DNA from: an uncultured Clostridia bacterium
GTDB taxonomy: Bacteria > Bacillota > Clostridia > Oscillospirales > Ruminococcaceae
Assembly (NCBI GenBank): GCA_947625155.1
Contig: CANQNG010000006.1
Coordinates: 1 to 64,000 of the forward strand
Direction: 5' to 3'
DNA: 64,000 bases
The translations under genes and the position numbers were made by a program. The notes under the pieces were generated by a model that worked only from the letters and a program-made list of their open reading frames with translations, searched no databases and was not told where the DNA came from. Below, in pieces: positions 2,167-53,992 of this stretch. Position 1 is the stretch's first letter. The number at the start of each line of letters is the position of its first letter.

Positions 2167-5100
2167 TCACGAATTTGCAACTTCCCATTCATGGATCTCA
2201 GAAGTGAACTTCGGCAGAGTGTCTGCATTGAGGACATCCGTTGCCCAGTCAGCAGGCTCGAACAGGCTAACTGCAATATACTTCAACTGACCAGTTGCAT
2301 CATCCGGTGTCAAGCTTGACGATGCATTTGTCTTACCATAGGCATCTGTCGCACCATGATCCATGGACTCAGCATCCACATCAGACAGGAAGTATACAAA
2401 GTTCTCCATCGTTTCATCGCTGTTATCGGTGAGATAAGCAGTCTCAAAGAGCGAACTTGCAATGTACTTCAGAATACACGTCGCATCATCCGGTGTTACA
2501 GATCCATTCAGGTCGGTATCGCCCTTCACGCCGATGTAAGCATTTACGATCAGCGGTATCTTGGAACCATCAGCGTCCGTCGTAACGACCTCTGCCGTGA
2601 GTTCCTTTGTGCCGCCCTGTCCATCCGGAACATTGTCGGTAACGATCACCTTGAGACCTAATTTGCAATACGGCTGACCAAGGCTCTCGTAAACAGACTT
2701 CGGATTGTTCAGCGTGACATCATCGGAATCTTCGGGTATGATGTTCATTGTTACAGAACCAAGCGGCACATTCGTAGCTGTACCGATAGCGTTCCCCTCA
2801 GCATCCAAAGCCTGACGCTTCAGCGTGCCGTTCAGGGTAGCCAGATCAAACGGTCTCGGATCATGCGACAGGTAGAACATGTCTTCCCCTTCGCCTTCAT
2901 ACTCATAGCTGTACTCATAATCAACAGGTGTATCAGCTACGATCTCGATCCAGCCGTCTACCGTGGTAACATCCACGATCTCGTTGTCAGCGATCCTGCT
3001 CACTTCGAGAGACTGAAAGTTGATCTCATATTTGTCGCCAACCTTTGCACCATCAGGTACATCAAATGTCAGTGTGATGATCGGAGCACCGTTCTTGCCG
3101 TCCAGCATGGTCACTGTCGGATCATTGATCGTACCAGCAAATACAGCATTTGCAAAGTTCGGCTCAATAGACAGGAGACTGCCATAAGCCGTACCCTGTG
3201 CATAGGTATCAGCACTCAGTGCGGGCAGACGGTCGTCAATTGCCAGATCCAGCAGGAAGGAATTCAAAGCCGTGTCACCGCTTGCGGTGATATTGATCTT
3301 AACGTCCTTCTGATCGGGTGTTGCAGTTATCTGATCAGCAGACCATGTTACCGCATAATGCTCTTCACTCGGTTCAGGAGTCGGTTCGGGCGTGGGTTCT
3401 GGAGTTGGCTCCGGTGTCGGTTCAGGTGTCGGCTCTGGAGTTGGCTCAGGTGTCGGTTCGGGCGTTGCATCAGGGGTCGGCTCTTCCGTTGTCTCTGATG
3501 ACGGCTCATCCAGATCACCTTCGACCTGGATCCAACCATCTGTCAAAGCCGGTACCAGTCGGAGCATGTCAACATTATAAATGTCCACATTTGCGAATGT
3601 AACAGGATATGTGCCTTTCTTAGCAGGTGCTATGATCGTGAAGGTGAGCAGCGTGCTGTCAGCTGACTGAGCAACTACGTTGCCCTCAAACATCGGCTGT
3701 GTACCTGCAGCGATCATTTTGGTAGTTTCCTTAGATCCCTCTTCAGGTTTGTCAAGATTCGACTCAAAGTTCAGGTCTTCATAAGCATCGCCTGCTTTTA
3801 CGCCTTTTACGTCCAGAGCATTGTCTGCTGTAAAGGAAGCGAGATAGGAGTTCAGACCTTCTGTATCGTTGTTGACCCATACATGGAGTTCAACTTCCTC
3901 AGTCGGCTGGGCAATGTAAGTCTCGATCACCCACTCAGCATCCACGTTCTTGGTCTCATCCTCGAACGGGATCTGCGGATCAGTCCAACCCACGTTTCCG
4001 GTAGCATCGGGATTAGTGGTCGGCTCTACTGCTTCTGTTGTCGGCTGGGGTGCTTCTGTTGCCTCGGTCGTCTCGGTCGCTTCCTCAGTGGACTCTTCCG
4101 TCTCTTCCGTTGTGTCGGCTACGACATTGATCCAGCCATCGATCAGATTCTCGTCGGACGGGATCAGCTGTACCATATCCTTGTCGAAGATCTCCAGCGT
4201 ATCGAACATTACATCATATGTGCCCGGCGTTTCCGGTGCAGTAAATGTGATCGTAAATACGCACGGAGGTTCATCTCCTGTTGCTGTTGCTACAACGTTT
4301 TTGTCGCCAAACATCGGCATCGTTGCGCCGAAGGTCAGGCTCTTCACGTTGTCCACAAAGTCGAGCGGCTCGTAAGCATCGCCCTTCTTTGCATCACTTG
4401 CTTTCAAAGGTTCTTCTGCTGTCAGGGATGTCAGATAGGAATTCAGACCTTCTGTATCACCCTTGACCCATACATGCAGATCGACCGTTGCGCCGGGTGC
4501 TGCATCGAGCTTCTCGATCTCCCACACAGCATCAAGCGCTTTGGTCTCCTGCTCGGTATCGCCCAGGATCTCGATCCAGCCAGCGACCAGATTCTTGTCG
4601 GTGGGGATGAGCTGTACCAGTTCACCATTGAAAAGCTCAAGGCTCTTGGTGGTAACGGCATACTTGCCGGGTGCAAGACCGGTCGTGTCAAATGTGATCG
4701 TAAATACGGCAGTATCGCCTGTGATATTGACATCTTTTGTGCTGTTGGGTGTGCCGCCAAATGTCAGCGTACCCAGATTCTGCTCAAAGCCAAGGTTATC
4801 CAGTGCAGAAACAGCTTTGGTCGCTTTTGCAGCATTCCCATTTTCATCAGCCTCAACTGCCATCTTTGCAAGATAGCTATTGAAGCCCGGGTTGCCGGAG
4901 ACCGAAACTGTGATCTCTGCCAGCGGGTCGTCAGCAGTGACAGTATCAGAACCTACTTCCCATTTCAGACCTGCTACGTCGGACTCTTTCTCACCGGGAT
5001 CGACCGGCTGATCACCGGGCTGGGTAGGCTTCTGCACGGGTTCGGTCGGCTCAACCTGCGGCTGGGTCGGCTCTACCTGCGGTTCTGTCGGGTCTACCTG

Positions 5101-6003
5101 CGGCTGGGTCGGCTCAACTTGCGGTTCAGTCGGCTCTACCTGCGGTTCTGTCGGCTCTACCTGCGGCTCTGTCGGCTCTACCTGCGGCTCTGTCGGCTCA
5201 ACTTGCGGTTCAGTGGGATCTACCTGCGGTTCGGTGGGATCTACCTGCGGCTCTGTCGGCTCTACCTGCGGTTCAGTTGTATCTTCCTGCGGCTCGGTCG
5301 TGGCATTTGGATCAGCATCCACACGAAGCACACCAGGTACGATCAGATCCGGATTATGTGTCGTTCCATCGATCTGCGTTACATCGAACTTGGGATCGTC
5401 TTCCGTGCCTGACATATCAATGGTGACCGCATAGTCGATGTAATCGAGACCATTATCGGGTTCTTTGGTGTTTGTTACGCCGTCCTCAGCGTACAGATAG
5501 AACTCGCAGAAACATGTGCCATCATCCAGTTTTCTGTTTGCGCCCTCGCCCGAAGTTTGACCGGTCTGCGGATCCTTACCGCCTACAGCGCCTACACCAA
5601 AGTTAGCATAATTGGGAGCAAACGTTTCAAACTTATAGCTGCCCTCCGGCTGCTTGATGAGATCGCAGCTGAGACCCAGCTCTGCCGGACTTTTCCCATC
5701 GATCAGGAGGTTACACTTGTAACCAAAGATACCGATATCGTTTGCTACATACAGCCTGATCACAGCACCCTTGTCCTCGTCATACTTCGTCTCTTCGATG
5801 ATCCACGTGAACTTGTCGCGGTTCTCCTCGCTATTCTTTAGCTCAGTGACCTTTTGTTCTGCGGACACCAAAGGCACTTCATCCGCCTGCGCCTGTACTG
5901 CTTTCGGGTTCGTCATTCTGAGCGCAGATACCGGCAGAGAGGAAGCGACCAGCGAGGTACACATGCTGAATGCGGTCAATGCTGATAAAAATTTCTTCAT
6001 CAC
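2167..6003 (-). CDS. Scaffoldin-like protein: signal peptide, N-terminal beta module, Pro/Thr heptad linker, four cohesin-like modules, (TPEP)n linker, C-terminal atypical dockerin
   Basis: Four repeated modules (e.g. VHVWVKGDTEGLNSYLTSL...GDAYE...TFGATMPMFG...VFTITFTAP..PGTYDVMFDTLEIF...DGWINVV) match the R. flavefaciens-type cohesin pattern; C-terminal GDTDLNGSVTPDDATCILKYI / NASSSLTPDDATGQLKYIAVSLFE dockerin repeats. Confidence 0.85.
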   Translation of the reverse strand: MMKKFLSALTAFSMCTSLVASSLPVSALRMTNPKAVQAQADEVPLVSAEQKVTELKNSEENRDKFTWIIEETKYDEDKGAVIRLYVANDIGIFGYKCNLLIDGKSPAELGLSCDLIKQPEGSYKFETFAPNYANFGVGAVGGKDPQTGQTSGEGANRKLDDGTCFCEFYLYAEDGVTNTKEPDNGLDYIDYAVTIDMSGTEDDPKFDVTQIDGTTHNPDLIVPGVLRVDADPNATTEPQEDTTEPQVEPTEPQVDPTEPQVDPTEPQVEPTEPQVEPTEPQVEPTEPQVEPTEPQVEPTQPQVDPTEPQVEPTQPQVEPTEPVQKPTQPGDQPVDPGEKESDVAGLKWEVGSDTVTADDPLAEITVSVSGNPGFNSYLAKMAVEADENGNAAKATKAVSALDNLGFEQNLGTLTFGGTPNSTKDVNITGDTAVFTITFDTTGLAPGKYAVTTKSLELFNGELVQLIPTDKNLVAGWIEILGDTEQETKALDAVWEIEKLDAAPGATVDLHVWVKGDTEGLNSYLTSLTAEEPLKASDAKKGDAYEPLDFVDNVKSLTFGATMPMFGDKNVVATATGDEPPCVFTITFTAPETPGTYDVMFDTLEIFDKDMVQLIPSDENLIDGWINVVADTTEETEESTEEATETTEATEAPQPTTEAVEPTTNPDATGNVGWTDPQIPFEDETKNVDAEWVIETYIAQPTEEVELHVWVNNDTEGLNSYLASFTADNALDVKGVKAGDAYEDLNFESNLDKPEEGSKETTKMIAAGTQPMFEGNVVAQSADSTLLTFTIIAPAKKGTYPVTFANVDIYNVDMLRLVPALTDGWIQVEGDLDEPSSETTEEPTPDATPEPTPEPTPEPTPEPTPEPTPEPTPEPTPEPSEEHYAVTWSADQITATPDQKDVKINITASGDTALNSFLLDLAIDDRLPALSADTYAQGTAYGSLLSIEPNFANAVFAGTINDPTVTMLDGKNGAPIITLTFDVPDGAKVGDKYEINFQSLEVSRIADNEIVDVTTVDGWIEIVADTPVDYEYSYEYEGEGEDMFYLSHDPRPFDLATLNGTLKRQALDAEGNAIGTATNVPLGSVTMNIIPEDSDDVTLNNPKSVYESLGQPYCKLGLKVIVTDNVPDGQGGTKELTAEVVTTDADGSKIPLIVNAYIGVKGDTDLNGSVTPDDATCILKYIASSLFETAYLTDNSDETMENFVYFLSDVDAESMDHGATDAYGKTNASSSLTPDDATGQLKYIAVSLFEPADWATDVLNADTLPKFTSEIHEWEVANS
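3366..3475 (-). repeat. 12-bp periodic repeats encoding (TPEP)n linker
   Basis: ggttcgggcgtgggttctggagttggctccggtgtc pattern; protein TPEPTPEPTPEP... Confidence 0.9.
5038..5290 (-). repeat. 21-bp tandem repeats encoding ~11 TEPQV(E/D)P heptads (linker)
   Basis: Repeated cggctctacctgcggttctgt units; protein TEPQVEPTEPQVDPTEPQV... Confidence 0.9.
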
Positions 6004-11158: not shown

Positions 11159-11203
11159 AATTGACATCGCTTTCACAGTTCTGACACTTTCCCCTTGTAA
11201 AAT
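11159..11203 (+). promoter_or_regulatory. Pho-box-like direct repeats + -10 upstream of response regulator
   Basis: AATTGAC-atcg-CTTTCAC-agtt-CTGACAC (11-bp period), then 10 bp to TAAAAT at 11198. Confidence 0.55.
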
Positions 11204-11254
11204 AAGAAAAGATATGCTATAATGAAAGAAAGCATCGGAAAGGAAGTGCTGCAC

Positions 11255-11938
11255 ATGAGCAAGCTGCTGATCGTGGACGATGAGGTCAATATCCGTGCCG
11301 TCGTCCGGGAATATGCCGAATTTGAGGACTACGAGGTCGATGAAGCTGCCAACGGCATGGAAGCCGTGGAACTCTGCAGGGAGAACGACTACGACCTCAT
11401 CATTATGGACGTGATGATGCCTAAACTGGACGGCTACTCCGCCAGCAAAGAGATCCGCCGCCGCAAGGACATCCCGATCATCATGCTCTCGGCACGGGGT
11501 GAGGAGTATGACAAGCTGTTCGGCTTTGAGATCGGGGTCGATGATTACGTCGTCAAGCCCTTTTCCCCCAAGGAACTGATGGCTCGTGTCCGTGCCGTGC
11601 TTGCCCGCCGGAAAGCCCCTGCCGCCGCCGAAGCCCCTGCCGAACACCTGAAATTTCAGGGGCTGGAGATCGACATTCCCGGCAGAGAAGTCTACGTGGA
11701 CGGCAAGAAAGTCTCCATGACCCCCAAGGAATATGACCTGCTCTTTTTCCTCGTGCGCAACAAGGGGCTTGCCATGACACGGGACAAGCTGCTCGAATCC
11801 GTGTGGGGGTACGATTTCTTCGGGGACGACCGGACGGTCGATACCCATATCAAGATGCTCCGGGGCAATCTCGGCAAATACCGCCGCTTTATCGTCACGC
11901 TGCGGGGTATGGGGTATAAATTCGACGATGCGGAGTAA
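11255..11938 (+). CDS. OmpR/PhoB-family response regulator
   Basis: LLIVDDEVNIRAVVREY, IIMDVMMPKLDG, VKPFSPKELMARV receiver; winged-helix RDKLLESVWGYDFFGDDRTVDTHIKMLRGNL; RBS ggaag before ATG 11255. Confidence 0.95.
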   Translation: MSKLLIVDDEVNIRAVVREYAEFEDYEVDEAANGMEAVELCRENDYDLIIMDVMMPKLDGYSASKEIRRRKDIPIIMLSARGEEYDKLFGFEIGVDDYVVKPFSPKELMARVRAVLARRKAPAAAEAPAEHLKFQGLEIDIPGREVYVDGKKVSMTPKEYDLLFFLVRNKGLAMTRDKLLESVWGYDFFGDDRTVDTHIKMLRGNLGKYRRFIVTLRGMGYKFDDAE

Positions 11939-13358
11939 AAAGGGGTTCCTGCGGCGCATCCCGCTGCGGATGCAGTTCGCTGTCAGCTTCTGCGTGTTCA
12001 CCATCCTCATTTCCGGGCTGCTGTGGCTGTTTGAGATCGTCCTGCTCGAAAAATTCTACTCCAACAGCAAGGTCGCCGAAACACGCCGCATCAGTGAATC
12101 CCTCGTGCAGTCCTACTACAACGACCCCATGGCGGATTTCCTGAAAGAACTCAACAGCGCCGCCATCAACAATCAGATGTGCATCACCGTTCTGGACGAA
12201 AGCCACCGCTACAAGCGGGACGTGATGAACAATACCTGCCTGCTGCACGGGGTCGGGAACTTGCAATATGCTTTTCTGGAGGAACTGGAAAACAGCAAGG
12301 ACGGCACGATCTCCCTACAGGTCTACAATGAGCAGATCGGCATGGAAATGCTGGTCTACGGCACGACGTTCGGGGAGGACGGCGAGGTGCAGGGATGCAT
12401 TTTCCTGAATGCCATCCTAGAACCAGTCGGCTCGACCGTGAAGATGCTGAAACGGAGCATCCTGATCTTCAGCGGCGTGGTGCTGGTCATTGGCTGTGCC
12501 ATTGCCTTTTTGCTGTCCAGCCGCCTGTCTGTGCCCATTGTACGCATCACCGGCTCTGCCAAGCGCATGGCGCACGGCGACTATGCGACACGCTTTGAGG
12601 GCGGCGGCTGCCGGGAAGTGGACGAGCTCGCCCGTGCGCTTGCGTATGCGGAGAAGGAGATCTCACGGGCGGATGCCATGCAGCGTGATCTGGTGGCAAA
12701 CGTATCGCACGATCTGCGCACCCCTCTCACCATGCTGAAAGCCTATGCCGAAATGATACGTGATCTCTCCGGGGACGATCCCGTCAAACGCAATGCCCAT
12801 TTGCAGGTCATCATCGACGAGACAGACCGCCTGACGGCACTGGTGAACGACATCCTCGACCTCTCCAAGCTCGAAAGCGGCAGCCAGAAGCTGGAACTGG
12901 AAACGATCGACGCTGCCAACTGGCTGGCGGACATCGTGGAACGCTACAAGGGCATTTCCGGGCAAATGGGCTATCACATCGACTTCACGCCGGATGCCCC
13001 CAAACAGATCACCTGCGACCCTGCCAAGCTGGAACGTGTCGTCTGCAACCTCATCCACAACGCCATCAACTACACCGGCGAGGACAAGCAGGTCTTTGTC
13101 CGTCAGATCAATACCGAAAAGGGCGTGCGCATCGAAGTGCAGGACACGGGCGACGGCATCGAGGAGGATAAGATCTCCCGTATTTTCGACAAATACTACC
13201 GCAGCGAGAACCACAAGCGGGAAGTCGTCGGCACGGGGCTGGGGCTGTCTATCGTCAAGGCGATCCTGAAAATGCACAATTGCAGCTACGGGGTACGATC
13301 TCGTCTGGGGGAAGGCTCGGTGTTCTGGTTCGAGATCACACAGGATGCAAAACGATAG
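11928..13358 (+). CDS. Sensor histidine kinase (HAMP, HisKA, HATPase), possibly PhoR/WalK-like
   Basis: NVSHDLRTPLTMLKAYAEMIRDL H-box; NAINYT N-box; GDGIEEDKISRIFDKYYRSENHKREVVGTGLGLSIVKAI. Confidence 0.95.
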   Translation: MRSKKGFLRRIPLRMQFAVSFCVFTILISGLLWLFEIVLLEKFYSNSKVAETRRISESLVQSYYNDPMADFLKELNSAAINNQMCITVLDESHRYKRDVMNNTCLLHGVGNLQYAFLEELENSKDGTISLQVYNEQIGMEMLVYGTTFGEDGEVQGCIFLNAILEPVGSTVKMLKRSILIFSGVVLVIGCAIAFLLSSRLSVPIVRITGSAKRMAHGDYATRFEGGGCREVDELARALAYAEKEISRADAMQRDLVANVSHDLRTPLTMLKAYAEMIRDLSGDDPVKRNAHLQVIIDETDRLTALVNDILDLSKLESGSQKLELETIDAANWLADIVERYKGISGQMGYHIDFTPDAPKQITCDPAKLERVVCNLIHNAINYTGEDKQVFVRQINTEKGVRIEVQDTGDGIEEDKISRIFDKYYRSENHKREVVGTGLGLSIVKAILKMHNCSYGVRSRLGEGSVFWFEITQDAKR

Positions 13359-13413
13359 TTTCACAAAACTATCACATAACTGTCATATCGTTTTCACATC
13401 GTGCTGTTAAACT
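13358..13413 (+). promoter_or_regulatory. Four Pho-box-like direct repeats and -10 for sRNA A
   Basis: GTTTCAC-aaaa-CTATCAC-ataa-CTGTCAT-atcg-TTTTCAC at 13358/13369/13380/13391 (exact 11-bp period); 10-bp gap to TAAACT (13408). Confidence 0.7.
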
Positions 13414-13419
13414 GAATAT

Positions 13420-13547
13420 GTAGTCGTAAGGCTACTTACTTTCTTGGTAATAACGTTTTACCCCAACGTTATTATTAAATCCCCAATAATCCCTATATCA
13501 TGCACAAACCCCCTCTGGCTGACCGGAGGGGGTTTGTGTTTGTGGTC
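13420..13547 (+). ncRNA. Candidate two-component-controlled C-rich sRNA A
   Basis: GTAGTC-GTAA-GGCTAC GNRA hairpin; TAATAACGTT-TTACCCC-AACGTTATTA hairpin; ATCCCCAATAATCCCTATATCATG; terminator CACAAACCCCCTC...GAGGGGGTTTGTG; paralogous to 23808-23904 (-). Confidence 0.7.
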
Positions 13548-22475: not shown

Positions 22476-23747
22476 ATGGAACTTACCTCTTACAGCGAAG
22501 CAGAGCTGAAAGCCTTTTACGCAGCCTGCCGGAAAGACTATGCCCGCTATCAGGCAGAGGGACTGAAGCTGGATATGTCCCGGGGCAAGCCCTCGCCGGC
22601 ACAGCTCGACCTGAGCGCCGGGCTGCTCACCTGCATCACGAACGAGGACTTGCAGGGCGAGGCTGGCGACTACCGGAACTATGGCATTCTGGACGGCATC
22701 CCGGAGGCGAAACGTATGTTCGCTCCCATGCTCGGGGTCGAGCCGGATGAGCTGTTCCTGCTCGGGAACGCCTCGTTACAGGCAATGTACATGACGATCA
22801 GCTATGCCTATTCCCACGGACTGCTTGGGCATACCCCGTGGGGACGGCTGGAAAAGGTGAGATTCCTCTGCCCTGTGCCGGGCTATGACAGGCATTTCAA
22901 GATCACGGAATTTTTCGGGGCAGAGATGATAAACATCCCCATGCACGAGGACGGTCCGGATATGGACATGGTAGAACGCCTTGTCTCCACCGACCCGGCT
23001 GTCAAGGGTATCTGGTGCGTGCCGCAGTACTCCAACCCGACTGGCATCGTCTACAGTGACGAAGTCGTCCGCCGCTTTGCTTCGCTAAAGCCTGCTGCAA
23101 AAGATTTCCGCATTTTCTGGGACAATGCCTACTGCATTCATCATCTCTGCGATACACCGCACTGCATCCCGCCCATTTTAGAAGAGTGCAAGAAGTACGG
23201 CAACGAGGATATGGTCATTGAGTTCGCTTCCACGGCGAAAGTGACATTTGCCGGGGCAGGGGTGTGCATGATGGCAGCTTCCAAGGCGACACTTGCTGAC
23301 CTGACAAAGGGGCTGTCCTGCTTCACGATCTGCTTCGACAAGACGAACCAGATGCGGCATGTGAGATTCTTCGACGGCAAGTTTGAGAACATCCTTGCCC
23401 ACATGGAAAAGCACCGTGCCATTCTTGAACCGAAATTCCGGACAGTCCTCACTGCCCTCAACACCGAACTAAAGCCCCTCGGTATCGGTTCATGGACAGA
23501 GCCGAAGGGCGGCTACTTTGTCTCGTTCAATGCGCCGGAAGGCTGTGCCAAGCGCATCGTGCAGCTTTGCAAAAATGCCGGTGTCGTGCTGACGGGTGCG
23601 GGGGCGGCGTTCCCCTACGGGGCAGACCCGGCGGACAGAAATATCCGCATCGCACCGAGTTATCCGGAGATCCCGGAGCTGGAAAAGGCAATGGCACTGT
23701 TCGTCCTCTGTGCAAAAATGGCAGCCGCCGAAAAGCGGATGGACTGA
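22476..23747 (+). CDS. class I aminotransferase (aspartate aminotransferase-like, type Ic)
   Basis: MSRGKPSPAQLDLS, GNASLQAMY, VPQYSNPTGIVYS, WDNAYCIHHL; Schiff-base STAKVTFAGAG. Confidence 0.85.
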   Translation: MELTSYSEAELKAFYAACRKDYARYQAEGLKLDMSRGKPSPAQLDLSAGLLTCITNEDLQGEAGDYRNYGILDGIPEAKRMFAPMLGVEPDELFLLGNASLQAMYMTISYAYSHGLLGHTPWGRLEKVRFLCPVPGYDRHFKITEFFGAEMINIPMHEDGPDMDMVERLVSTDPAVKGIWCVPQYSNPTGIVYSDEVVRRFASLKPAAKDFRIFWDNAYCIHHLCDTPHCIPPILEECKKYGNEDMVIEFASTAKVTFAGAGVCMMAASKATLADLTKGLSCFTICFDKTNQMRHVRFFDGKFENILAHMEKHRAILEPKFRTVLTALNTELKPLGIGSWTEPKGGYFVSFNAPEGCAKRIVQLCKNAGVVLTGAGAAFPYGADPADRNIRIAPSYPEIPELEKAMALFVLCAKMAAAEKRMD

Positions 23748-23763
23748 ACCCTGAAATAACAGA

Positions 23764-23796
23764 CACCCCTGCCTATGTTGCAGGGGCGTTTTTTTC
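23764..23796 (+). terminator. intrinsic terminator after aminotransferase
   Basis: CACCCCTGC...GCAGGGGCG followed by TTTTTTT. Confidence 0.8.
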
Positions 23797-23807
23797 AGCC
23801 CGTAACG

Positions 23808-23904
23808 GAAAAAACAGACGACCCCACCTTAACAGTGGGGCCGTCTGCCATGATATAGGGATTATATAGGGGATGTCATTAACGTTTGGGGTCCCGTTAA
23901 TGAC
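23808..23904 (-). ncRNA. Candidate two-component-controlled C-rich sRNA B (paralog of sRNA A)
   Basis: minus strand: GTCATTAACG-GGACCCCAAA-CGTTAATGAC hairpin; ATCCCCTATATAATCCCTATATCATG (23874-23849); terminator CAGACGGCCCCAC...GTGGGGTCGTCTGTTTTTT. Confidence 0.7.
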
Positions 23905-23910
23905 AAGTTT

Positions 23911-23955
23911 ATTATAACCGCCCAATGTGAAAACTATATGAAAACCAGTTGAAAG
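23911..23955 (-). promoter_or_regulatory. Pho-box-like direct repeats and -10 for sRNA B
   Basis: minus: CTTTCAA-ctgg-TTTTCAT-atag-TTTTCAC (11-bp period, 23955 to 23927), 10-bp gap, TATAAT (23916-23911). Confidence 0.7.
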
Positions 23956-24019: not shown

Positions 24020-25024
24020 ATGCCGAAACAAATTGGTTCCAGCATCCGCATGGAACACCCACCGAAGGTGACGAGCTATGCTGCCATTGTTGGCAGCAAG
24101 GAGGGAGAAGGACCGCTCGGGCGCTGCTTCGACCGGGTAGAGCAAGACCCCTATTTCGGGGAAAAGAACTGGGAAAAGGCAGAGAGCCGTTTGCAGTCCG
24201 ACACGCTGGCACTGGCGCTGCGCAAGGGTATCTTACACAATGCCGACTTAGACTGCATCGTAGCGGGCGACCTCATCGACCAGTGTACGGGTTCGTCCTT
24301 TGCGGTGCGGGAGACAGGCGTGCCATATCTGGGGGTCTACGGGGCTTGCTCGACAATGGCAGAAGCGCTCCTGACGGCTGGCATCCTCACGGACAGTGGC
24401 TGCTGCCGGCGGGCTGCGGCGGTGACTTCTTCCCACTTCTCAACGGCGGAACGGCAATTTCGCTTTCCCCTCTCCTACGGCGGGCAGCGAACGCCCACTG
24501 CACAGTGGACTTGTACCGCCTCTGGTGCCGCTGTGGTGTCCGCCACGGGAGAGGGTGCTGCGCTATCAGGCGGCTGTATCGGGCGGGTCTGCGACCTTGG
24601 CGTGACGGATGCCAACAACATGGGAGCTGCCATGGCACCGGCGGCGGCAGATACCATCCAGCGCTACCTGACGGACACGTGTACAAAGCCGGAGGATTAT
24701 GATGCCATCGTCACGGGAGACTTGGGCAATGTCGGTTCGCCTTTGCTGATAGACTTATTGCTGAAACAGGGCATCGACATTTCCAAAGTCCACAAGGACT
24801 GTGGGATGCTGATGTTTGACGACAAGGCGCAGGACACCCATGCAGGGGGGTCGGGGTGCGGCTGTTCGGCAAGCATCCTGTGCGCCTATTTCCTGCCGAA
24901 ACTGCACAGCGGCTCACTGCGGCGCATCCTCTTTGCGGCGACGGGGGCGCTGCTTTCGGCAATGTCGCCGCAGCAGGGGGAGAGCATTCCGACGATCTCG
25001 CATCTTGTGGAGCTTACCGCATAA
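24020..25024 (+). CDS. spoVAD: stage V sporulation protein AD
   Basis: GVYGACSTMAEAL, GDLGNVGSPLL, HAGGSGCGCSASILCAYFLPKL; thiolase-like fold. Confidence 0.95.
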   Translation: MPKQIGSSIRMEHPPKVTSYAAIVGSKEGEGPLGRCFDRVEQDPYFGEKNWEKAESRLQSDTLALALRKGILHNADLDCIVAGDLIDQCTGSSFAVRETGVPYLGVYGACSTMAEALLTAGILTDSGCCRRAAAVTSSHFSTAERQFRFPLSYGGQRTPTAQWTCTASGAAVVSATGEGAALSGGCIGRVCDLGVTDANNMGAAMAPAAADTIQRYLTDTCTKPEDYDAIVTGDLGNVGSPLLIDLLLKQGIDISKVHKDCGMLMFDDKAQDTHAGGSGCGCSASILCAYFLPKLHSGSLRRILFAATGALLSAMSPQQGESIPTISHLVELTA

Positions 25025-25400: not shown

Positions 25401-25620
25401 GCAGGCGGCAGGCAGGCGGCAGGCTGCCGCCTCCGTCCCGCCTCCCAATGCCGGGCTATGCCCGGCAAAGGTCGGCTTGCTCGACTGTTAGTGCAGTATA
25501 TAAGAGCAACTCAAAAAAATGGCGTATCGGCAGCGGCAGGCGTCAGGCTGCTGCTGGGAGGCACAACGGGTGCAGTGTCACGCTGCTTGGGCGACAGATC
25601 GGGCGTTCAGACTCTGCGCC
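25401..25620. repeat. dispersed modular intergenic repeat (copy 1)
   Basis: GGCGGCAGGCTGCCGCC...CCTCCCAATGCCGGGCTATGCCCGGCAAAGGTCGGCTTGCTCGACTG; GGGAGGCACAACGGGTGCAGTGTCACGCTGC. Confidence 0.7.
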
Positions 25621-29109: not shown

Positions 29110-29302
29110 AACTACAAGTAGGGGGCGGCAGCGTGACGCTGCACCCGTTGTGCCTCCCACCGGCAGGCTGCCGGCTCCGTTCTGCCTCCCAATGCGGCTG
29201 CGCCGCAAAGGTCGGCTTGCACGACTGAAAGCGTAAAAAAGGGGGTGCAGGGGGCGAAGCCCCCGCAAGAACTCCCCCTTCCCCCTTGGGGGAAGGGGGG
29301 CT
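29110..29302. repeat. dispersed modular intergenic repeat (copy 2)
   Basis: CGTGACGCTGCACCCGTTGTGCCTCCCACCGGCAGGCTGCCGG...CAAAGGTCGGCTTGCACGACTG + AAAAAGGGGGTGCAGGGGGCGAAGCCCCCGCAA...CTCCCCCTTCCCCCTTGGGGGAAGGGGG. Confidence 0.75.
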
Positions 29303-31533: not shown

Positions 31534-32016
31534 AAAAGGGGGGTGCAGGGGGCGAAGCCCCCGCAACATAGCTCCCCCTTCCCCCGTGGGGGAAGGGGGT
31601 CGGGGGGTCAGGGGCAAATAGCGGTGTTATCCCCCGGATCAGGGCATACTATATAGTAGCGACTGCCTGCGTTTCCGCCCAAGGGCGGAAAGGATAGTAC
31701 CCAATAATTGGAAGAAGGGGCACTTTTTTTGCCAAAAGTGCCCCCTCTCTTGACCAAGATAAAAAGTAGCAGTCAAGAAAGCCGACCTTTGCCGCCGTAA
31801 GGCGGCATTGGGAGGCGAAACGGGTGCAGCGTCACGCTGCTTTTTGGACTTCACCCCCTGAAAAGGGCGTAGTATAGAAGTGTTTCGCCGCCTGCGGGCG
31901 GCGACCAGAGGGCGCTGCCCTCTGGACTTCCGCCAGCTTTTTGAAAAAAGCTGGAGCAAAAACTTTTATCCTGTCGCCCAATGCGCCTTGCGGCGCAAAG
32001 GGCGACTTGCCCGAAT
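31534..32016. repeat. dispersed modular intergenic repeats (copy 3, composite)
   Basis: AAAAAGGGGGGTGCAGGGGGCGAAGCCCCCGCAA... (matches 29236-29298); CCGACCTTTGCCGCC...GGCGGCATTGGGAGGCGAAACGGGTGCAGCGTCACGCTGC; CGCCCAATGCGCCTTGCGGCGCAAAGGGCGACTTGCCCGA. Confidence 0.75.
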
Positions 32017-32017
32017 G

Positions 32018-37596: not shown

Positions 37597-37611
37597 ATGT
37601 GTTCGACATGT

Positions 37612-37700
37612 GAACTCCCTACGCCGGCATGGACCGTATCAGGTGGCAAGGGTCGGAAACTGCTGTTTCCCTCTCAGCCCGGCTGCGGACTCCCCTGTTC
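37612..37700 (-). promoter_or_regulatory. TPP (thi-box) riboswitch aptamer
   Basis: minus strand: GGGGAGTCCGCAGCCGGGCTGAGAGGG...GACCCTTGCCACCTGATACGGTCCATGCCGGCGTAGGGAG. Confidence 0.95.
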
Positions 37701-37874
37701 TTTTTTATTATAGCACAAAGTTCCGGAAATTGCAAGGGGGAAATGAAAATTTCAGCCATCCTGCCCTCTTAAAATTCATTAATTTTTTCATAAAACACTT
37801 GACAAAATTCTTTCCCTATGTTACAATAAATTTATGAAATGTATGGGGATCACACTTTCAAGGAGGCTTTGTCT

Positions 37875-53856: not shown

Positions 53857-53992
53857 GCGGCAGGCTGGCAGCGTGACGGCGGCAGGCTGCCGCATCCGAT
53901 CTGCCTCCCACCGGCAGGCTGCCGGCTCCGTTGTGCCTCCCAATGCCGGGCTATGCCCGGCAAAGGTCGGCTTGCTCGACTGCTGCTTTTAT
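53856..53992. repeat. dispersed modular intergenic repeat (copy 5)
   Basis: GGCAGGCTGCCGC...CTGCCTCCCACCGGCAGGCTGCCGGCTCCGTTGTGCCTCCCAATGCCGGGCTATGCCCGGCAAAGGTCGGCTTGCTCGACTG. Confidence 0.8.

Follow-up and report, generated by a model that had tools for sequence, protein, structure and literature searches.

Locus B, one of two related genes for C-rich small RNAs linked to a two-component system in Ruminococcus

Within a 64,000-nucleotide stretch of DNA (the window) from an uncultured Ruminococcaceae bacterium, locus B is probably one of twin small RNA (sRNA) genes that are activated by a response regulator and act in trans by C-rich pairing with mRNAs. Comparative sequence analysis demonstrates the gene unit, its structure, its twin-copy state, and its linkage to a two-component system; base-pairing with mRNAs is inferred from the kind of sRNA. 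The notion is that the response regulator encoded next to A recognizes direct repeats, phased at 11 bp, that stand in for the -35 element, and so switches on both loci, A and B. Each resulting RNA would expose two C-rich sites: an apical loop, ACCCC in A, and, between a covarying stem and the terminator, a single-stranded linker (AUCCCC..AAUCCCUAUAUCAUG). These sites would most likely pair in trans with G-rich, probably ribosome-binding, stretches of several mRNAs.

Two loci with one architecture

The initial annotation placed an sRNA gene, B, between an aminotransferase gene and spoVAD, and regarded it as a diverged paralog of locus A on the opposite strand. Each element named for B (box, gap, TATAAT, hairpin, linker, and terminator) is found, base for base, and A also proves to be as described (Table 1). 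The convergent aminotransferase gene has a terminator of its own on the plus strand (23766-23786). A and B share the same order of elements, but A has an additional 5' hairpin. The covariance model matches A at 13448-13540 (E 2e-17). The designation of B as an sRNA gene paralogous to A has strong support: the locus is conserved, its stem covaries, it has a promoter and a terminator to itself, and genomes across the genus have kept two copies.

Table 1. Features of loci A and B and of their neighbors (window positions)
Feature	Position	Strand	Remarks
Box-like repeats CTTTCAC/CTGACAC + TAAAAT	11159-11203	+	regulator's own promoter; possible autoregulation
OmpR/PhoB-family response regulator	11255-11938	+	likely to activate A and B; start set here instead of at 11222, from Shine-Dalgarno (SD) sequence and N-terminus
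Cognate histidine kinase	11928-13358	+	without PAS domain; A follows directly
Promoter box of A	13358-13397	+	four 11-bp-phased half-sites
-10 element of A	13408-13413	+	TAAACT, weak
Predicted sRNA A	13420-13545	+	in order: 5' hairpin, ACCCC-loop hairpin (13448-13474), linker (13475-13502), terminator
Aspartate aminotransferase (type Ic)	22476-23747	+	convergent with B; synteny marker for B and tandem C copies
Intrinsic terminator of B	23809-23849	-	16 pairs (23849-23813) plus T-run
Predicted sRNA B	about 23809-23904	-	about 95 nt; start inferred from -10; covariance-model match 23814-23902, E 5e-8
Invariant C-rich linker of B	23849-23874	-	ATCCCCTATATAATCCCTATATCATG; conserved across copies
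Perfect 10-bp stem of B	23875-23904	-	GTCATTAACG/GGACCCCAAA/CGTTAATGAC, C-rich loop GGACCCCAAA; fold and stem-family covariation
-10 element of B	23911-23916	-	TATAAT; 10-base gap after box
Promoter box of B	23927-23955	-	CTTTCAA ctgg TTTTCAT atag TTTTCAC; three half-sites, 4-bp spacers, 11-bp phase; -35 element replaced
spoVAD	24020-25024	+	divergent from B

A chance origin of the elements shared by A and B is excluded. Across the whole assembly, the motif AATCCCTATATCATG occurs exactly at just two sites, A and B, and the seven matches with two mismatches resemble ordinary sense-strand coding sequence. The suggestion that the shared segment might be a common repeat unrelated to transcription accordingly fails. 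In the 64-kb window, the three-half-site box is present with at most one mismatch only at A and B, and 0.71 occurrences are expected at up to two mismatches. Relative to shuffled sequences, the fold of A has a z-score of -7.4 and that of B one of -6.3. For neither locus does any of 200 shuffles yield a stem around the loop as good as the native one.

The RNA family is previously uncatalogued, has no Rfam entry, and constitutes a new family of the C-rich sRNA kind. Specifically, no Rfam 15 family matches A or B at gathering thresholds, and nothing meaningful turned up over the sRNA either in ten relatives (E up to 5) or in the long versions described below (E up to 1). There is likewise no Rfam match to LhrC, if Rfam includes it, at A, B, the relatives, or the long versions. 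The open-access literature yielded no relevant paper on the family or on Ruminococcus sRNAs.

Elsewhere in the window lie a TPP riboswitch (RF00059, 65 bits; 37599-37706, minus strand), a tandem array with a 21-bp period (4976-5321), and a GC-rich interspersed repeat (25417-25487, 29199-29227, 31989-32017, and 53912-53982) comprising two 71-nt copies that are 94% identical plus partial copies.

Distribution and history of the copies

The window's genome belongs with Ruminococcus, and the cultured R. flavefaciens strains ND2009 and YL228 are among the genomes matched. A covariance-model search of related genomes, the check proposed with the initial annotation, uncovered further copies in the genus and in the family. 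The motif is present in 32 of 38 genus genomes. By the covariance model the RNA is likewise found in 32 of the 38, with exactly two copies in 30; one of the other two carries four copies on two contig pairs, and one, 59% complete, carries one. Among the six genus genomes with no match, three also have no kinase match and two have the kinase gene cut by a contig end. The sixth, G013, harbors a decayed copy behind the kinase gene that keeps the box, CCCCTATATC, and the terminator; this decayed-linker copy is at L271, 2213-2286, minus strand. Family-wide, the model detects the RNA in 47 of 398 genomes, which represent 11 of 126 genera, with one copy per genome outside the window's genus. In a thinner order-wide sample, only the window's genome and one other carry it.

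Copies fall into three types by position. In 104 of 107 cases, a type A copy directly follows the same PhoB-type regulator/kinase pair; the median distance between the end of the kinase match and the motif is 185 bp. Type C, present in sister species, is in tandem with A, about 200 bp after it, and, where the aminotransferase gene was detected close by, ends about 70-150 bp from the 3' end of that gene, convergent with it. In loci long enough to tell, type B ends at C's position relative to the aminotransferase gene and has spoVAD on its other side. Given this matching end position, B and C seem to share one locus, and B appears to be the positional counterpart of the tandem C copy. On the kinase tree, the B-carrying genomes group as a single clade (support 99/99); thus, one rearrangement, of either direction, explains the separation of A and B in the window. 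C-type copies (e.g., L010, L017, and L019) have an extra conserved 5' segment, TTCTCCCCCTTTT, that resembles an SD complement and is absent from A and B.

The position of A directly behind the kinase gene could also mean that A is a structured, separately terminated 3' element of the operon, serving termination or stability, with B a translocated remnant. We regard this as highly improbable: A has its own promoter box at a fixed spacing to the -10 element, B and the L273 copy retain the box away from the operon, and second copies are kept genus-wide with the linker unchanged.

A covarying stem and a conserved linker

The initial annotation noted that the stems of A and B differ in sequence yet stay paired, as expected of a selected structure, and this pattern extends from two sequences to 29. 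With those 29 aligned in register, 99.3% of cells in the 10-bp stem pair, a percentage that is favored by the choice of stem arms for pairing when the set was built. Nine of the ten pairs are altered on both sides. None of 500 shuffles attains the native value on any measure, and pairing is lost when the partner is slid along. The double changes are safer evidence for the stem, as is a separate shuffle control, in which 0.03% of shuffles reach the median stem score. RNAalifold returned no structure from the raw MAFFT alignment, in which stems differing in length did not line up; a register-corrected alignment solved the problem.

Across the ensemble, most bases of the loop and the linker stay unpaired. 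Nearly all A copies have ACCCC as their loop, and the loops of B and C are C-rich. Five screened copies have no loop hairpin and keep the linker, so the linker is the more essential part. Altered copies include L193 (about 5845-5905), where the loop is lost, and L281 of genome G037 (2494-2571, minus strand), where the two linker sites of B are merged to ATCCCCTATATCATG; the merger suggests that the sites are redundant.

Most copies also conserve an ATG in the linker, which raises the idea that a small peptide gene begins there. We reject this reading as having next to no probability, given that the frame runs through the terminator, that it may be as short as 5 codons or as long as hundreds, that the C-rich linker preceding the ATG offers no SD sequence, and that some copies have ATA instead.

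A promoter box linked to an OmpR/PhoB-family regulator

The half-site consensus of the promoter box is (Y)TNTCA with an 11-bp phase. The final half-site stops 11 bp short of the -10 element in 81 of 105 A copies, 11 of 13 B copies, and 17 of 18 C copies. Similar layouts are known: Mycobacterium tuberculosis PhoP binds 7-bp TCACAGC motifs with 4-bp spacers (PMC4832192), and CiaR reads TTTAAG-N5-TTTAAG (PMC3091779). By this resemblance, the layout is that of promoters activated by OmpR-family regulators. The box is of OmpR/PhoB type, and the regulator whose gene lies just upstream of A very probably reads it.

Strong but indirect evidence indicates that this regulator activates transcription of the sRNAs. 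Beyond the linkage of the genes, 62% of 81 promoters of the regulator gene itself contain box-like repeats, versus 5% expected by construction. Moreover, the box is kept where the RNA sits away from the regulator-kinase genes (B, L273, and the long versions), and a scan of 19 more distant copies found it in 18. The link between regulator and box is one of co-occurrence, and the weak -10 element of A counts against the proposal. A different OmpR-family regulator could instead activate the RNAs, for the genome encodes ten Trans_reg_C domains and the geometry of the box is common to many regulators of the family (PMC4832192, PMC3091779). Such an arrangement is improbable, since no other regulator-kinase pair shows linkage to the RNA across genera and since the box-like repeats sit in the linked regulator's own promoter. 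We rejected the identification of the regulator as PhoB: its scores of 209 and 208 bits lie below the curated PhoB cut-offs of 270 and 296, respectively. A domain search of the kinase gave no match to a PAS domain, and both results argue against assignment to the PhoB/PhoR regulon.

The box also occurs elsewhere. At L040 (1501-2065), the same three-half-site box, with correct -10 spacing, lies upstream of a small membrane protein gene, a candidate regulon member, and similar boxes exist in L051 (1501 onward) and at G019:C23:3617-3660. In the window's genome, a triple box precedes a SHOCT-domain membrane protein gene (L068, 1501-2303; G000:C19:21515), the only other exact box match seen near a gene start there. 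Finally, a TTTTCA-type triple repeat on the opposite strand, with TTTACA/TTAACA repeats nearby, occupies the leader of a Na/phosphate-cotransporter-like gene (NptA/PhoU-type) in L042, L058, and L064.

Probable pairing with mRNAs or possible titration of a protein

Four genera (g3, g91, g93, and g119; L335-L345) possess a long RNA of about 190 nt with two or three hairpins bearing ACCCC-type loops. In these long versions, the linker ends in AUAAUCCUAUAUCAU, the promoter box is the same, and the gene is located away from the regulator-kinase genes. Terminator loops, too, can be C-rich: CCCC is found in those of 11 of 111 family sRNAs versus 4 of 523 other terminators of the same loci (p=2e-6, an optimistic value because the sRNA copies are related). 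From the repeated ACCCC loops and the CCCC terminator loops, the C-rich loop has the look of a functional unit gained time and again, and C-rich presentation looks to be under selection.

The elements that could pair with mRNA start regions are ACCCC, AUCCCC, and AAUCCCUAU, and the genome encodes Hfq. Searches for targets were negative. Specifically, the 15-nt core has no near-complete antisense partner in this genome; RATATAGGG N2-12 ATG targets in seven genomes amounted to 48 sites, with no conserved start site among the loci returned; and pairing in 738 start regions is not enriched over shuffled segments. Feedback on the regulator mRNA was considered and rejected, as the regulator's start region pairs no better than average. 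Pairing is therefore deduced from the kind of sRNA, and there is room for another role, that of a decoy under the same two-component control whose ACCCC loops and CCC linkers sequester an RNA-binding protein. The identical loops repeated in the long versions, the re-gained CCCC terminator loops, and the negative start-site and pairing searches all accord with titration. Titrating RNAs driven by two-component systems are, in addition, known, and the idea has been raised for LhrC (PMC4132741). We nonetheless consider a decoy rather unlikely: some copies lack the loop hairpin and retain the linker alone, and the pairing sRNAs of low-GC gram-positive bacteria typically carry C-rich sites. It also counts against titration that we know of no protein of such a kind that binds C-rich loops. 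CsrB sequesters an RNA-binding protein through GGA loops. That the family is a signal-induced, C-rich counterpart of CsrB/RsmZ, with the long two-to-three-hairpin versions as its fuller form, would be a slightly longer shot still.

This sRNA family is well defined: a candidate for its regulator can be named, the box to be bound is predicted, nature provides two copies to compare, and some of the hosts are in culture. R. flavefaciens bacteria are key fibre degraders of the gut and rumen. Together, the box and the RNA model offer a handle on the signal sensed by an uncharacterized two-component system.

Comparison with known systems

Several sRNAs under two-component control resemble the A/B family. 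In Escherichia coli, OmrA and OmrB are tandem twin sRNAs under an OmpR-type system, reminiscent of A and C in the sister species; they differ in having no sequence relation to the family, and feedback on the regulator mRNA is without support here. RoxS/RsaE of Bacillus and Staphylococcus, like the RNAs described here, is a C-rich gram-positive sRNA under a two-component system, its regulators being ResD/SrrA. Unlike them, it is single copy and of other sequence, with no Rfam match here. RsaE is known for C-rich pairing (cited in PMC4132741). Mcr7 of M. tuberculosis is a noncoding RNA under the OmpR-family regulator PhoP, whose 7-bp TCACAGC motifs and 4-bp spacers match the layout seen here (PMC4038636, PMC4832192). 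Mcr7, however, is single, is unrelated in sequence, and has a known target, whereas none was found here.

The Streptococcus csRNAs are closer. CiaRH controls several similar sRNAs through direct-repeat promoters with an 11-bp period read by an OmpR-family regulator, and each csRNA has two stem-loops and a conserved unpaired linker holding an anti-SD sequence, as in the A/B family (PMC3091779). The differences are that the repeat here is (Y)TNTCA/TTTTCAC-type, with the CiaR repeat not encountered, and that the linker CAU lies 3' of UCCC, the wrong order for pairing with SD and AUG at one site.

The LisRK-controlled LhrC1-5 of Listeria monocytogenes are multicopy, strictly two-component-dependent, and equipped with redundant UCCC sites in loops and linker, which bind the SD region of mRNA (PMC4132741). 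The A/B family is similarly multicopy, with two copies in 30 of the 32 RNA-carrying genus genomes, and similarly presents several unpaired C-rich sites in loop and linker. It departs from LhrC in having two copies rather than five, in its box (the LisR box differs, or none is known), and in its targets, none having been found here. In design, LhrC is the closest of these systems, and our best reading is that the A and B RNAs work as LhrC, RoxS/RsaE, or the csRNAs do.
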